A stretch of 64,000 bases of DNA from contig JAGWVU010000001.1 in assembly GCA_018970725.1 (NCBI GenBank), positions 124,001 through 188,000 of the forward strand. Direction: 5' to 3'. The position numbers were made by a program, and so were the translations under genes. This DNA is from Verrucomicrobiota bacterium (lineage in GTDB: Bacteria > Verrucomicrobiota > Verrucomicrobiia > Verrucomicrobiales > DEV007). Of the stretch, positions 3,302 to 38,113 are shown in pieces (within the stretch, counting starts at the first letter, position 1; each line of letters starts with the position of its first letter). The notes beneath the pieces were generated by a model. It saw only the letters and a list, made by a program, of their open reading frames with translations, had not been told where the DNA came from and made no database searches.

Positions 3302-4105
3302 TCAATGGGCCAGCAGCCACTGCCGGACGCGGGGATTGAAGTCGGCCATGGCCTCCCAGTGGAAGGCGTGGCCGGCGTTGTCGTAATAATGCCGCTCGGC
3401 TCCGGGGATTCCGTTGGCGACCTCTTCGGCCATCCAGAGCGGGGTGAAAATGTCCGACTTCCCGGCGATGACGAGCGTGGGGCAGCGGATCTCCCCGAGA
3501 CGGTCGAGAGTATGGTGATTCACGCAGGCCGCGGCCTGGGCTTCCAAGCCGTGCAACGGTTGAGGCGTCGGGTTGAGGGAGAAATCGGCACGGCCCTGAA
3601 CCAGGGAATCGTGGGCTTCGTCATTGTCCCAGAACGGTTTGGTGAAGATGAGCAACTGGATCCATTCGAGGAACTCCGCCGGGGAAAGATGCGCCTTGCA
3701 GGCCTTCATATGCTCGAAAATGGAGCGTCCGTAACGGTCGCACCGCGCCCATGGACACATTTGCACCATGCTGATCACCTTGTAGGGATGACGCAGGACC
3801 AGTTGTTGGGCAATGATCGCTCCCATGGAGACTCCCACCACCCGGGCCCGCGCGATCCCGAGCGCGCTCATGAGACCGGCATAGTCGTCCGCCATCATCT
3901 CGCTGGTGTAGGGACCGGCCGGTTTGTCCGTCAATCCCACCCCGCGGTTGTCGGGCATGATGCACCGGAAATTCTGTTTCCAATCCTCCTTGTGCGCTTC
4001 CCAAACTTCACCGCGGGCCGTGATCCCCATGATCAGGATCAGCGGTTCACCGTTTCCCGCTTCTTCATAATACATCTGGATTCCGTTCGTCTGGACGTGA
4101 GGCAT
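3302..4105 (-). CDS. alpha/beta hydrolase
   Basis: A 267-residue alpha/beta-hydrolase-fold protein starting MPHVQTNGIQMYYEEAG. The fold markers are in order: PLILIMGIT (HG-like oxyanion loop), MPDNRGVGLTDKP, the nucleophile elbow VVGVSMGAIIAQQ (Ser in GVSMG), TLVIAGKSDIFTP (acid residue strand) and the catalytic His in YDNAGHAFHWE. The open frame reaches 22 codons further upstream, but homology to the family begins at the ATG at 4105, which I chose. No signal peptide is visible. It is the first gene of the minus-strand group with the isomerase and the PVC dehydrogenase, and it is divergent from the aldolase gene. It may be a lactonase or esterase for a sugar derivative; that is inference from context only. 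Confidence 0.85.
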   Translation of the reverse strand: MPHVQTNGIQMYYEEAGNGEPLILIMGITARGEVWEAHKEDWKQNFRCIMPDNRGVGLTDKPAGPYTSEMMADDYAGLMSALGIARARVVGVSMGAIIAQQLVLRHPYKVISMVQMCPWARCDRYGRSIFEHMKACKAHLSPAEFLEWIQLLIFTKPFWDNDEAHDSLVQGRADFSLNPTPQPLHGLEAQAAACVNHHTLDRLGEIRCPTLVIAGKSDIFTPLWMAEEVANGIPGAERHYYDNAGHAFHWEAMADFNPRVRQWLLAH

Positions 4106-4233
4106 GGGTCTTCGGGGTAAAATTCTCCTGGCGCAGTCCTTAGCGCAAATGCCCCCGCCTTCCAACAACAAAGCGCGGGAAAAGCGGACAGTGTCGGTTT
4201 GCCTGATCGTCCGCCTTGTGCTACGGCCCTCCC
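4106..4233. promoter_or_regulatory. divergent intergenic region, hydrolase operon / aldolase
   Basis: This 128-base gap separates two divergently transcribed genes and must hold both start sites. I see no clear -10/-35 pair and no convincing operator palindrome. Confidence 0.4.
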
Positions 4234-5001
4234 ATGAAGCAAGCGTTGGCGAAAATTTTCGGTGCGGATGGCAGAACGGTGATTCTACCGATCGACCATG
4301 GCACCGCCATTCCGGTCCCGGGGCTCGAGCAACCGGCCGACCTCATCACCGCGCTCGCCCCGCATGTGGACGGCTTCGTCGTCAACCTCGGCACCGCCCG
4401 GGCTTGCCAGAACGCTTTGGCCCAAAGTGCCGTCTGTCTGCGGACCGATGTCTACAAACCCGATCTGGCCGGAGGCAGCATCAAGCTTTTCGGCGCGGAA
4501 GACGCCGGAGAAGTCGGAGCCTGCGCCATGATGCACATGCTCTATCCCGGCCATGAGGACGAGGCCCGGATCCTCGTCGAGTGCAGCGAGACCATCCGCG
4601 AGGGCATCTTCGCCGGAATTCCCACCATCGTCGAGGCCCTGCCCTCCGGACTCGGGCTCCCCGCGGCTTACACCCCCCATGCCGTCGGATTCGCCGTCCG
4701 GCAGGCCGCGGAACTTGGTGCCGCCGTGGTCAAGACCGCCTTTCCCACCGGTGCGGATGTCGCCGCCTTCCGTTCCGTGGTGCGGAGTTCCTTCGTGCCG
4801 GTGATCGTGCTGGGCGGTGCCGCCATGGGCGACGACCGGGCACTGCTTGCGATGGTCCGGGACGCCTTGGATGCGGGGGCCGCCGGTATTGCCATCGGTC
4901 GGAATGTCTGGATGCACCCGGAACCGGTCCGCATCGCCCGCCAATTGCATGCCTTGGTCCACCGCGATCTTTCGGTAGAGGACGCTCTCCGGGCGGTCTG
5001 A
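4234..5001 (+). CDS. DhnA-type class I aldolase (FbaB/LsrF-like)
   Basis: A 255-residue class I aldolase-fold protein of the DhnA (archaeal-type fructose-bisphosphate aldolase/LsrF) group. Visible motifs are VILPIDHG near the N-terminus, a repeated GxxK-type strand, GAAVVKTAFP carrying the likely Schiff-base lysine, PVIVLGGAAMGDD, and GAAGIAIGRNVW, which is the phosphate-binding loop at the C-terminal end of the barrel. The frame can be read from a TTG six codons upstream, but the ATG at 4234 matches the family start. It stands alone on the plus strand, divergent from the hydrolase/isomerase genes, and ends at a strong hairpin shared with the convergent ParA-like gene. The exact substrate (fructose 1,6-bisphosphate or another ketose phosphate) is not determinable. 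Confidence 0.85.
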   Translation: MKQALAKIFGADGRTVILPIDHGTAIPVPGLEQPADLITALAPHVDGFVVNLGTARACQNALAQSAVCLRTDVYKPDLAGGSIKLFGAEDAGEVGACAMMHMLYPGHEDEARILVECSETIREGIFAGIPTIVEALPSGLGLPAAYTPHAVGFAVRQAAELGAAVVKTAFPTGADVAAFRSVVRSSFVPVIVLGGAAMGDDRALLAMVRDALDAGAAGIAIGRNVWMHPEPVRIARQLHALVHRDLSVEDALRAV

Positions 5002-5033
5002 TTCCCGGTGCGAAGCCTCCGGACCAGACAAAG

Positions 5034-5073
5034 AAAAAGCGCCGGATGCAAACCCTCGCACCCGGCGCCTTTC
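5034..5073. terminator. bidirectional hairpin terminator
   Basis: Between two convergent genes there is an inverted repeat: GCGCCGG-A-TGC (5039-5049) pairs with GCA-C-CCGGCGC (5058-5068) around an 8-base loop. An A-run lies on the left side (5034-5038) and CTTTC on the right, so it could serve the aldolase on the plus strand and the ParA-like gene on the minus strand. Confidence 0.75.
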
Positions 5074-5113
5074 AACAACCCAACAACAACAAATTTTTCA
5101 GCGGGCGCCTCCC

Positions 5114-5845
5114 TCAGGCGGAGCGCCGGAAGCCGTGCTTGGTCAGCACTTCGGGCTCGATGTAGTCGATCGCCTCTTCCATCTGGCGGTCGAACTCCCG
5201 CCACCAGCGCCGCAGGTAACGCCCCAAATCTCCGGGCACTTCCTCGGGCTCCACGCCAAGGGCGCTGATCAAGGACAGGCCAGCCTGTTCAAGCAGCAGT
5301 CGTCCCGCGTCCGTGATGCGGGGAACTTCCAGGATGACCGCGCCAAGGGAATCCACGGCCCGGCAGGCACGGCTGTCTTCCCACGATTCCAGACTGGAGG
5401 CGAACTCGTCTTTCGGAATCCGCGGAATCACATAGTAAACCTTGTCCCCCAAGGTCCGGCAGATTTCGAGGATCGAGTCGTTGCAATCCGCCTCGTCAAC
5501 CTGGGGGGCCACAATGGTGACCTCGATATCGAGTTCCCCGAGTTCCAGATCCATGTCGATGCTTTCGTGAAGCTCCAGAACGGCCTCCGCATAGCCCGTC
5601 TGCACGTCGCAGACGATGACATCGTTTTTCCGCGTCCACCCGAGCAACCGCTTGATGTTGTTCTCGTTCAGGATATTCCAAGTGCCGTTGTATTTGGCGT
5701 CGCGGTCCCGCTCATCGTCGTCACCGACCACAGCCACCAGGGAGGTGCGATGGCCTTGGCGGCGGAGATGGGTGGCGAGAGCGGTGGCGAAGCTGGACTT
5801 GCCAACTTCTTCGTGGTCGTTCATGACAAAGAGAATGCGTTTCAT
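5114..5845 (-). CDS. ParA/MinD-like P-loop ATPase with a divergent Walker A
   Basis: A 243-residue soluble protein. The N-terminus MKRILFVMNDHEEVGKSSFA gives a beta strand followed by EEVGKSS, which sits where ParA/MinD proteins carry KGGVGKT; the leading glycine and the signature lysine are missing. A Walker-B-like strand NDVIVCDVQTG follows, and later a VTIVAPQ strand, so the fold looks like a SIMIBI-class NTPase. The C-terminal 60 residues are rich in Arg, Trp and Glu (YLRRWWREFDRQMEEAIDYIEPE) and match nothing I know. No parB or plasmid gene is nearby. The open frame extends 31 codons into the AT-rich promoter region; I chose the ATG at 5845 because the conserved strand starts there. Function is unknown; plasmid-type StbB-like proteins are an alternative comparison. 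Confidence 0.7.
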   Translation of the reverse strand: MKRILFVMNDHEEVGKSSFATALATHLRRQGHRTSLVAVVGDDDERDRDAKYNGTWNILNENNIKRLLGWTRKNDVIVCDVQTGYAEAVLELHESIDMDLELGELDIEVTIVAPQVDEADCNDSILEICRTLGDKVYYVIPRIPKDEFASSLESWEDSRACRAVDSLGAVILEVPRITDAGRLLLEQAGLSLISALGVEPEEVPGDLGRYLRRWWREFDRQMEEAIDYIEPEVLTKHGFRRSA

Positions 5846-5865
5846 TGGGAACTGTTGTTGAGTAG

Positions 5866-5893
5866 ATATTACGGCAATCCTGAATATAGGCAA
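5866..5893 (-). promoter_or_regulatory. candidate sigma-70 promoter for the ParA-like gene
   Basis: In an AT-rich divergent gap (5846-5925), the minus strand reads TTGCCT (5893-5888), a 16-base spacer and TAATAT (5871-5866), about 20 bases before the ATG. The plus strand of the same gap carries TATAAA at 5903-5908 in front of the S4 gene, without an obvious -35. Confidence 0.45.
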
Positions 5894-34950: not shown

Positions 34951-37092
34951 TCAGGTCCCCAGGGCGGCGCGGGCGGACAACAGCACGGCCGTGATGATCC
35001 AAAAGAAGACCAGCACTCCGGCGGTGAAGGCCAGTCCGTGGTGCAGAATCCGCCGCCGGTCCTCTCCGGCTTGGGAGACAAAGCCCATGATCTTCAGCGT
35101 GATCACCGGGAAGACACAGGGCATCAGGTTGAGGATCATTCCACCGAGGAACGCGCCGCCCAGGGCCGCCCAGAGGCCAAGCTCCCGCGCAACCGCCGGT
35201 GGGGATGCAGAGCCCTCCGCCCCGCCCCGCACCGCGTCGACGATCACCGCCGGAGTCAGCAGGTTCGGCAAAACCTGCGGAGGCACCGTCTTGTCCTTTG
35301 AGAAGAGGAGGTAGAGCGGGACCCCATTGCGGTCAAACTTCTGCAAAACCTCGAGAACAGCGGGGTCCTCGCGCGTCCAGTCGATTTCCAGAAAAGCGAC
35401 CCCTTTCTCCGCAAAGACACGCTGAACCTCTGCGCTGTGGATCGCCGGTTTGTTCGCTTGGCAGGTGACGCACCACGACGCGGTGAAATCGACAAAGACC
35501 GCCTTGCCTTGATCCTGAAGGGAGGAGATCTCCGCCATGACATCGTGCGCCACCACAGGGCGCTCCTGCCCCGCCCCCCGGGAGGCGAATTGGAAGGCGA
35601 CGAGCAGGAGCACCGCCCCGGCCCCCCACGCCACGCGACGAGTCCGCTCCTCCCGGGCGGGCGTGCCGAACCGACCAAAGATCCAAGCGGCTGCGGCGAC
35701 GAGGATCAAGGCGGCAAAGCCAAGGAACAGGCCATCCGAATCGACCTGTTGAGCCAGGACGGAAAGCAGCCAGGCCATCACCACCACCATCGGAAACGCC
35801 ATGGCCTGCTTGAAGGTCTCCATCCAGGCGCCAGGCCTAGGCAACCGGGAAATCCACGCGGGAAAAGCCGAAAGCAGGAGATACGGAGTGGCCATACCCA
35901 GACCAATCAGGGTGAAAATCAGCACCGCGATGCCGAGCGGAGCTCCCAAGGCATAGGTGATGGCAAAACCCATCGCCGGCGCGGTGCAAGGCGTGGCCAG
36001 CAAAGTCGCTAGCGCTCCGCTGAAGAAGGAGCCGGCCAGCCCTTCCCGATGCGTCAGATCCGCTCCCACCCCACTCAGGCTGCCTCCTACCTCGAAAACG
36101 CCGAACAGGTTGAGGGCAATCAGCAACATCACCGCAGCCAGGCAGGTGACGATCAACGGGCGCTGCAGCCAATAACCCCACCCCTTTGGTCCTTCCCCGT
36201 TTCCCTTGGCACCCGGCTCTGCTTCCTCCCCAGGTTGCCCGGTCGGCACCGCCGGCCCGCCGATCCTCCAGGCTGCGGAATCGCCATCCACCGCCAGCAC
36301 GCCTCCCGTCTCCGGCGGGAAGATCCCGGTGAACTCCGGGGCGGCCGCGGTGGTGACGACCAGCTTCCCCTCGATCCGCCTCACCTTCTGCGGAGAGGCC
36401 GAATTCGTGATTCCAGCTGCGGCCGGATAAAAATAGAGCCTGGCGGGATCGGTCGGAACCATCCCGCCATCCGTCAGGCTGAAGGTCACTTCCCGGGTCG
36501 CGGAGTCGTAGACCGTTTCGACGGCCCAATCCACGCTTTTCGGCAGAGCGGCCGCCACGCCGGAAATCACGTCGGCACCGGAGGCGCCGCCCCTTTTCCA
36601 ATCGAGCTTCGCGCTCCCCCGCACACAGGTCTCCGCACAAACCAGCCAGACGGCTTCGGCAGCGATCGCGGAGGGCAGCCCCCCGCCCGGAGGCGGCGTG
36701 ATGGTGGCCAGCAGCACGACCTCCTTCTCGTAGCCATAACTGCGATACCCCGCCGCATCGAACCGGTGCGGAACCGGAAACAGGAGCGGCCCGACCGTGT
36801 AACCCTCCGGCAAGGTCCAGGTCACCTCCGGCGCGGCCCCGGGACTGCCCGGGTTTTCCCAATACACATGCCACCCCTCTTCGATGGCAAGGTGAATGCC
36901 CGCCAGGAAAGGCTCCCCGGCCGCGCGCGGACGATCGTCCACCAGCAGCCGCGCTTCCACATGGCTCCGCGAGGGCAAGGCCCAACCGGGACCGATCCCG
37001 ATCCATAAGAAAAGGGCGGCACAAAAGATCTCCAGTTGAATCCTTGGAAGAGCCATCGGAACGGAGCGCCCGGCCGTCAGGAAGCATTTCAT
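34951..37092 (-). CDS. DsbD-like thiol:disulfide interchange protein with permuted transmembrane domain
   Basis: A 713-residue envelope protein. After the signal peptide (ending GIGPGWALP) comes a DsbD-type N-terminal domain (HVEARLLVDDRP, EEGWHVYWENPG, AEAVWLVCAETCVRG with a Cys pair). Residues about 302-485 are the second part of the membrane domain: GWGYWLQRPLIVTCLAA, ALNLFGVFEVGG and the conserved cysteine in LLATPCTAPAMGF. A thioredoxin domain follows (residues about 500-620, WCVTCQANK near 541, cis-Pro NGVPLYLLF). The first two helices of the normal membrane domain are last: GLWAALGGAFLGGMILNLMPCVFPV (Cys near 657) and HGLAFTAGVLVFFWIITAVLL, ending RAALGT. In ordinary DsbD that end runs straight into GWGxxLQ. 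Both halves are complete and unduplicated. Start: ATG at 37092, or the ATG 36 bases inside. Confidence 0.85.
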   Translation of the reverse strand: MKCFLTAGRSVPMALPRIQLEIFCAALFLWIGIGPGWALPSRSHVEARLLVDDRPRAAGEPFLAGIHLAIEEGWHVYWENPGSPGAAPEVTWTLPEGYTVGPLLFPVPHRFDAAGYRSYGYEKEVVLLATITPPPGGGLPSAIAAEAVWLVCAETCVRGSAKLDWKRGGASGADVISGVAAALPKSVDWAVETVYDSATREVTFSLTDGGMVPTDPARLYFYPAAAGITNSASPQKVRRIEGKLVVTTAAAPEFTGIFPPETGGVLAVDGDSAAWRIGGPAVPTGQPGEEAEPGAKGNGEGPKGWGYWLQRPLIVTCLAAVMLLIALNLFGVFEVGGSLSGVGADLTHREGLAGSFFSGALATLLATPCTAPAMGFAITYALGAPLGIAVLIFTLIGLGMATPYLLLSAFPAWISRLPRPGAWMETFKQAMAFPMVVVMAWLLSVLAQQVDSDGLFLGFAALILVAAAAWIFGRFGTPAREERTRRVAWGAGAVLLLVAFQFASRGAGQERPVVAHDVMAEISSLQDQGKAVFVDFTASWCVTCQANKPAIHSAEVQRVFAEKGVAFLEIDWTREDPAVLEVLQKFDRNGVPLYLLFSKDKTVPPQVLPNLLTPAVIVDAVRGGAEGSASPPAVARELGLWAALGGAFLGGMILNLMPCVFPVITLKIMGFVSQAGEDRRRILHHGLAFTAGVLVFFWIITAVLLSARAALGT

Positions 37093-37132
37093 AGCCTCCC
37101 TTTCACCGGGAATCCCCTTTTGGACGGAAACT

Positions 37133-37301: not shown

Positions 37302-37718
37302 TCAAACCCATGGGATGCACAATTTCCGGGCCGCGTCTCGCATCCGCCCATCCGCCGTGCAAATCGGAAAATCCTGATGAAGGTCACACGCTGCCAGGTG
37401 GAGCGCGTCGAGTGTGCGCAGCGGCACCCCGGGATGGCATTGTTCCATGATGAGATTCGCTTTGCGCAGTTGAACGGAATCCATTGCATACAGCCAAAGT
37501 TGTTTGCTGGAGACCTGATCCAAAAACACCTGCCACGCCCGGCGCCGCTGACGGTCGTCAATCGCGCCAAGCCGCTCCTTCGATAGAAGGGCGGACCACA
37601 CCTCAGTCATCGCCAATTCCGATGACGCAATCAATTGACCCTGCAGAGCGTCCTGATAAAGATCGCTGTCCGGCTCCCGGACCAAAAGCTTGACCACCAC
37701 TGAAGTGTCGAGATACAT
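37302..37718 (-). CDS. vapC: VapC-like PIN-domain toxin
   Basis: A 138-residue PIN-domain protein. The four acidic active-site positions are in LDTSVVVKL (Asp), AMTEVWSALLS (Glu), LRTLDALHLAA (Asp) and CTADGRM (Asp), so the Mg-dependent ribonuclease site looks intact. VapC toxins cut RNA, often initiator tRNA or rRNA. The gene starts at the ATG at 37718, overlapping the last base of the upstream antitoxin stop (TGATG), the usual coupled arrangement. The pair is flanked by the two copies of a 43-base repeat, which could mark its insertion. Confidence 0.88.
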   Translation of the reverse strand: MYLDTSVVVKLLVREPDSDLYQDALQGQLIASSELAMTEVWSALLSKERLGAIDDRQRRRAWQVFLDQVSSKQLWLYAMDSVQLRKANLIMEQCHPGVPLRTLDALHLAACDLHQDFPICTADGRMRDAARKLCIPWV

Positions 37719-38113
37719 CACCAGCCCCGGCCGTCCCGATCTTCACGGATGATTTCTTGCGCGGCCGCACCCGTCCAAGCAGGCATATCCGCCAGGTGCT
37801 CCCTGGTTCCCCGAAAAGGCGCACGTTCCCTTGAGGCATCGATCGGCACCAGCCGGGCCTTGGGGCGGCCATCACTGGTGATCGTCACCACCCGCCCTAG
37901 CGCCACCTCCTCAAGCAAGGCGGAAAGGTGAGCCTTCGCTTTGCGCACGCTGACCGTCGGATCAATGGCGGCTTCGGAGCCCCGATCCCGAACAGATGAA
38001 GCACCTCCCTCCGCCTCCTCCGAGTCGGCGAGGCGCCAAGAACTTGCGCGCCTTTCTATCATATGAACAGCGTAGTCACGGAGAACCTCAGTGCAAGTGT
38101 TTTCCTGCTCCAC
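37718..38113 (-). CDS. Phd/YefM-type antitoxin
   Basis: A 131-residue protein. The Phd/YefM core is in the second half: VSVRKAKAHLSALLEEVALGRVVTITSDGRPKARLVPID, which forms the DNA-binding dimer in this family, followed by a C-terminal tail that should wrap the VapC toxin. The first 50 residues (MEQENTCTEVLRDYAVHM..., then an acidic stretch DSEEAEGGASS) are not part of the usual 80-residue antitoxin. An internal ATG at 38062 would shorten it. It is upstream of and coupled to vapC, and it probably autoregulates the operon from the gap at 38114-38325. Confidence 0.82.
   Translation of the reverse strand: MEQENTCTEVLRDYAVHMIERRASSWRLADSEEAEGGASSVRDRGSEAAIDPTVSVRKAKAHLSALLEEVALGRVVTITSDGRPKARLVPIDASRERAPFRGTREHLADMPAWTGAAAQEIIREDRDGRGW

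Follow-up and report, generated by a model that had tools for sequence, protein, structure and literature searches.

Does a membrane electron-transfer protein still work when two of its helices have been moved to the other end of the chain? This question is raised by a gene in a 64,000-nucleotide stretch of DNA from a Verrucomicrobiota bacterium (the window; positions count from its first letter). Its product resembles DsbD, a model for disulfide-borne electron movement across the membrane, and carries the first two membrane helices behind the thioredoxin domain. To our knowledge, it is rare for a multi-helix membrane protein to be circularly permuted in nature.

Module order and the site of the cut

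The original prediction, made from the letters of the window, had placed the gene correctly at 34951-37092; the strand, which it had left unstated, is minus. The reading frame starts with ATG 37092, a choice supported by an alignment of three species, and stops at 34951-34953. We describe the protein in four modules, A (signal plus alpha domain), B (TM3-8), C (thioredoxin) and D (TM1-2), whose positions are collected in Table 1. The observed order is A-B-C-D (alpha, TM3-8, thioredoxin, TM1-2), compared with A-D-B-C in canonical proteins. The translation bears out the predicted succession of signal, DsbD_N, GWGYWLQ, ATPCTAP, WCVTC, NLMPCVFPV and a C-terminal RAALGT-stop (residues 304, 369, 541/544 and 659).

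Table 1. Features of the permuted DsbD gene (window positions; residues count from ATG 37092)
Feature	Position	Strand	Comment
Coding sequence, permuted DsbD/ScsB-like protein	34951..37092	-	713 aa, order A-B-C-D
Purine-rich putative ribosome-binding stretch AAAGGGAGG	37093..37103	-	just 5' of ATG 37092
Signal sequence region, residues 1-40	36973..37092	-	hydrophobic at about residues 11-40
A: DsbD_N/ScsB-alpha-like periplasmic domain, about residues 45-280	36253..36960	-	Pfam PF11412, 66.4 bits
Alpha-domain Cys pair C152/C156	36625..36639	-	invariant in three species
B: TM3-TM8, residues 304-509	35566..36183	-	starts GWGYWLQ; DsbD_TM profile 76-216; six AF2 helices
ATPCTAP with redox Cys C369 in TM4	35977..35997	-	equivalent of E. 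coli C285 (PMC3526765)
C: thioredoxin domain (DsbD-gamma), residues 515-625	35218..35550	-	PF13899, 59.3 bits
WCVTC active site C541/C544	35461..35475	-	in thioredoxin domain
D: TM1-TM2 hairpin, residues 641-711	34960..35172	-	behind thioredoxin domain
MPC (NLMPCVFPV) with redox Cys C659 in TM1	35116..35124	-	equivalent of E. coli C163 (PMC3526765)

The cut is exact. Pfam DsbD_TM matches in two swapped pieces, with profile positions 76-216 ahead of the thioredoxin domain and positions 2-63 behind it. Taken by itself, the latter piece reaches 18.6 bits, below the cut-off of 27.1, but its homology is clear since module D is 58-62% identical to canonical TM1-2 hairpins. Of 129 canonical or A-C-D-B relatives, 104 have the MPC cysteine 56 positions ahead of the G in GWGxxLQ, with 55 residues between them. 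The window protein has 54 residues between C659 and the stop, against the 55 expected, and its spacing from the TPC to the thioredoxin cysteine (172) equals the canonical mode. The two halves are thus complementary, as predicted, with swapped segments, neither gap nor duplication, and joined termini. The prediction had spoken of a circular permutation of the membrane domain. The permutation stands, but it took in the thioredoxin domain as well as the membrane domain, behind a fixed alpha domain. We looked for a frameshift or an adjacent canonical copy and found neither; the gene is the sole DsbD_TM match in a genome that is 96.5% complete.

Each part that defines DsbD/ScsB proteins is present: an alpha domain with its Cys pair, eight helices with cysteines in TM1 and TM4 (ordered 3-8 and then 1-2), and a thioredoxin-like gamma domain with CXXC, which the predicted topology places on the periplasmic side. 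What differs is their arrangement, with alpha, TM3-8, gamma and TM1-2 found instead of alpha, TM1-8 and gamma. The best PDB match of the alpha domain, both by sequence (1.4e-11) and by fold, is 6c29, the N-terminal domain of ScsB (suppressor of copper sensitivity B). The thioredoxin domain is nearest to DsbD gamma and superimposes on that of Neisseria (6dnu) with a VIA-align Z of 13.1 and an rmsd of 2.4 over 109 aligned residues. Only the alpha and thioredoxin domains appear among the Foldseek and VIA-align matches listed, and the missing CcdA is uninformative, since the modules are ordered differently and a single domain takes up the list.

The protein is most like ScsB and other long DsbD proteins with a large alpha domain, with which it shares the match to 6c29, DsbD_TM plus thioredoxin, and three Cys pairs. 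Unlike in ScsB, TM1-2 follows the thioredoxin domain, and no scs operon partners are seen beside the gene. With E. coli-type DsbD it has in common three redox modules and six cysteines, and its gamma domain reaches Z values of 11-13 against the Neisseria and E. coli counterparts, whereas the module order differs. CcdA belongs to the same TM1-6 core family (PF02683), to which the window protein adds alpha and thioredoxin domains in a permuted arrangement. The full-length NCBIfam models stay far under their cut-offs (DsbD model PRK00293 89 of 330 bits, TsoB 131 of 805 bits) because the permutation cuts them, and annotation by profiles breaks up such proteins or overlooks them. On this sequence evidence, we regard the protein as a rotated derivative of DsbD/ScsB with clear homology by descent and not as a standard member.

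Conservation and distribution of rotated proteins

A database search for the same order, which the prediction had proposed, revealed full-length A-B-C-D proteins in both other sequenced species of the genus, G001:C44 (L004/L160) and G002:C14 (L003/L041; public contig QQNE01000014.1, a Verrucomicrobia MAG), with 75-77% identity. All three end in RAALG(T/A)-stop, and the positions of the TM segments and cysteines, including the six redox cysteines and C317, are invariant. Pairwise dN/dS values are about 0.11, 0.08 and 0.06, a sign of purifying selection, with dS near saturation. The relocated TM1-2 hairpin is the best conserved part (91-96% identity); identity is lowest in the alpha domain (70-72%) and amounts to 86-96% in the membrane parts. 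The neighbours are collinear in the three genomes, with a trypsin-like peptidase and Mem_trans upstream and GNAT, PIG-L and OsmC-like genes downstream; they were not found around the DsbD genes of three canonical relatives. In the window, a Phd/YefM antitoxin and PIN toxin pair (37302-38113, minus strand) lies between the DsbD and trypsin-like genes and has no match at the syntenic locus in either of the other two species. The same genome also contains a free-standing 342-aa open frame resembling DsbD alpha (G000:C105:42437-42919, 38% identity), and such stand-alone frames recur in relatives.

We searched 388 genomes of the phylum, 387 of the order and 61 of family f13 with a query spanning the C-D junction, and used the same query on 398, 296 and 151 genomes from the phyla of L099, L077 and L076. 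Among the approximately 1,600 genomes surveyed, A-B-C-D is limited to the window's genus of uncultured Verrucomicrobiota (three of three genomes). The remaining relatives read in the family, order and phylum are canonical or A-C-D-B. No rotated DsbD was detected in the 398, 296 and 151 genomes outside the phylum at the thresholds used, which divergent ones could escape. Two plasmid matches, H1 and H2, at first looked as if they crossed the junction but proved to be canonical in order. Gammaproteobacterial L118 and L119 are canonical except for tandem alpha domains (A-A-D-B-C).

The order A-C-D-B is found in family f13, where 49 of the 57 genomes with a match have a single-piece C-D match and where the order was read directly in the fetched loci; it also occurs in four genomes of an Akkermansia-like genus (loci L037-L040 and L121-L142 for f13 and some of the Akkermansia-like genomes). 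These proteins represent another rotation of the D-B-C cycle, with the cut between TM8 and the thioredoxin domain, the membrane domain itself intact and an independent origin. With A-B-C-D, A-C-D-B and A-D-B-C found, all three cyclic orders of D-B-C exist in one class.

We built trees on D, B and C put into a common order. Identity served as a check on alignments A1 and A4, and position as a further check on A1; A3 was left out because fragments were misplaced in it (TM1-2 against TM4, with identity down to 28%). The A-B-C-D proteins form one clade among the canonical proteins of their own family, on a long stem of 0.9 changes per site that could mean a changed function. Since all carriers belong to one genus, they represent one evolutionary event. 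The A-C-D-B proteins occupy separate positions, and a constraint to a single clade is rejected (p-AU 2.7e-7); this order arose more than once in the class of the window. A-B-C-D is thus not an isolated oddity: the thioredoxin-first rotation recurs in the same class, and the rotation of the window protein arose in a family prone to such changes. Our literature search found no paper that joins DsbD and circular permutation. A survey of homologues, named beforehand as a possible refutation, turned up no described subfamily with the A-B-C-D order, and independent assemblies agree on it.

A separate observation concerns canonical DsbD genes of the window's family. Five of them (L017, L025, L027, L029 and L031) carry an in-frame TGA at the first cysteine of the thioredoxin motif (W-TGA-x-x-C), so the encoded proteins are probably selenoproteins (UXXC). 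In this family, selB is above the cut-off in 12 of 15 genomes with the DsbD TGA and in none of 14 without it. Simple folding gave no clear SECIS signal in the TGA-bearing genes. Of this kind of selenoprotein, a 2026 review lists only the rhodanese/DsbD fusion TsoB.

Predicted topology and proposed function

In E. coli DsbD, a protein of eight helices, C163 lies in TM1 and C285 in TM4; electrons move from cytoplasmic thioredoxin to the C163/C285 pair, next to gamma and lastly to alpha (PMC3526765). The AF2 model of the window protein places six helices ahead of the thioredoxin domain and two behind it. Of the predicted loops, the cytoplasmic ones (TM1-2, TM5-6 and TM7-8) contain 3, 2 and 5 K+R residues, respectively, and the periplasmic ones (TM4-5 and TM6-7) contain none. 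Because two helices have moved and the loop charges fit, each module should stay on its usual side. The prediction had argued that relocation of an even number of helices preserves the topology, and this is still the best reading, with the TM1-2 loop keeping its positive cytoplasmic signature. When modelled alone, residues 300-713 give a pLDDT of 83.8 and a pTM of 0.77, which suggests that the TM1-2 hairpin docks.

We consider it very probable that the gene encodes a working thiol:disulfide interchange protein of the DsbD/ScsB type, in which alpha has kept its place and the D-B-C unit behind it has become B-C-D by circular permutation. Loss of its function should be costly, since the genome has one DsbD_TM match and also encodes ResB of the Ccs cytochrome c system. 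In the proposed mechanism, the chain would insert with the usual topology, and cytoplasmic thioredoxin would reduce the C659-C369 pair formed by the relocated TM1 and TM4. Electrons would then pass to C541-C544 of the thioredoxin domain and on to C152-C156 of alpha, which would hand them to periplasmic partners, among them probably the apocytochrome thiol pathway of the ResB system. The thioredoxin domain would be tethered at both ends, by TM8 on its N-terminal side and by TM1 on its C-terminal side, and alpha would be joined to TM3 and no longer to TM1.

Two other explanations have to be weighed against a working interchange protein. That an assembly rearrangement or chimera merely mimics the permutation might be suspected because each of the three A-B-C-D genomes is a draft (in 108, about 210 and about 160 contigs), and one or more are metagenome assemblies. 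But three separate assemblies, diverged by 20-25% at the protein level, agree in order, last residues and neighbours; sharing of A-B-C-D over the full length by two other species excludes both chance and misassembly, and we regard an artefact as ruled out in practice. A stable and conserved protein with a different job, such as one restricted to the Ccs/ResB pathway or directed at a new partner, seems improbable to us. Its rationale is that a thioredoxin domain held at both ends would be unable to reach alpha as before, and the long stem of the clade, the low conservation of alpha and the presence of ResB all fit a change of this kind. C152/C156 and the flanking WLVCAETCVRG are nevertheless invariant, linkers of about 15 and 27 residues are left around the thioredoxin domain and between alpha and TM3, and the thioredoxin domain is tethered on both sides in the A-C-D-B relatives too.

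Origin of the rotation

Circular permutation can be modelled as duplication, a route reviewed together with the textbook natural cases swaposin and transhydrogenase (PMC3320104). Those proteins likewise have a rotated module order with function presumably kept, whereas the cut in the window protein lies inside a polytopic membrane electron-transfer domain. Here, an in-frame duplication of D-B-C would have been followed by loss of the first D and the last B-C.

A trace of such a route is found in the Akkermansia-like A-C-D-B proteins L141, L142 and L165 (890-898 aa), which contain about 110 helix residues between alpha and thioredoxin. The inserted helices of L142 score 26.3 bits against the canonical TM6-8 profile, compared with at most 8.0 bits in 500 shuffles; with the same profile, TM1-2 of L142 gives -3.1, TM3-5 0.3 and the C-terminal TM6-8 74.4. 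TM6-8 is thus present twice in L142, as permutation by duplication predicts, and by its sequence we take the decayed second copy to be a fossil of that process. As an intermediate of the duplication route, this protein would make the mechanism open to direct study. A possible starting point for rotations is seen in L060, an Opitutae MAG with two complete tandem DsbD genes (178-2214 and 3819-5870).

The window locus has no duplication remnant, and the fossil belongs to a different lineage with a different rotation, so duplication and trimming is assigned to the window lineage by analogy. The absence of a remnant, with the convergent GNAT gene ending 20 bases beyond the DsbD stop, would also fit fission and fusion, or a direct cut-and-paste of the TM1-2 hairpin. 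We consider these routes unlikely, if less so than a changed job, since no free-standing TM1-2 or TM3-8-thioredoxin genes are seen in relatives, and the family has both tandem copies and a duplication fossil.

Verrucomicrobiota DsbD is likely to be a naturally rotatable membrane enzyme. In this view, all three cyclic orders occur and are functional, duplication and trimming led to them repeatedly, and in one of them the cut falls inside the polytopic membrane domain. If this is true, TM1-2 is autonomous in its insertion and docking, and gamma can work while tethered at both ends. The permuted protein offers a natural test of the independent folding of TM1-2, of whether the periplasmic TM2-TM3 loop is dispensable, and of how much freedom gamma needs. 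As a further observation, the C-terminal place of the thioredoxin domain is taken in L141, L142 and L165 by a long acidic tail rich in D and E (sequence read in L141 and L142).
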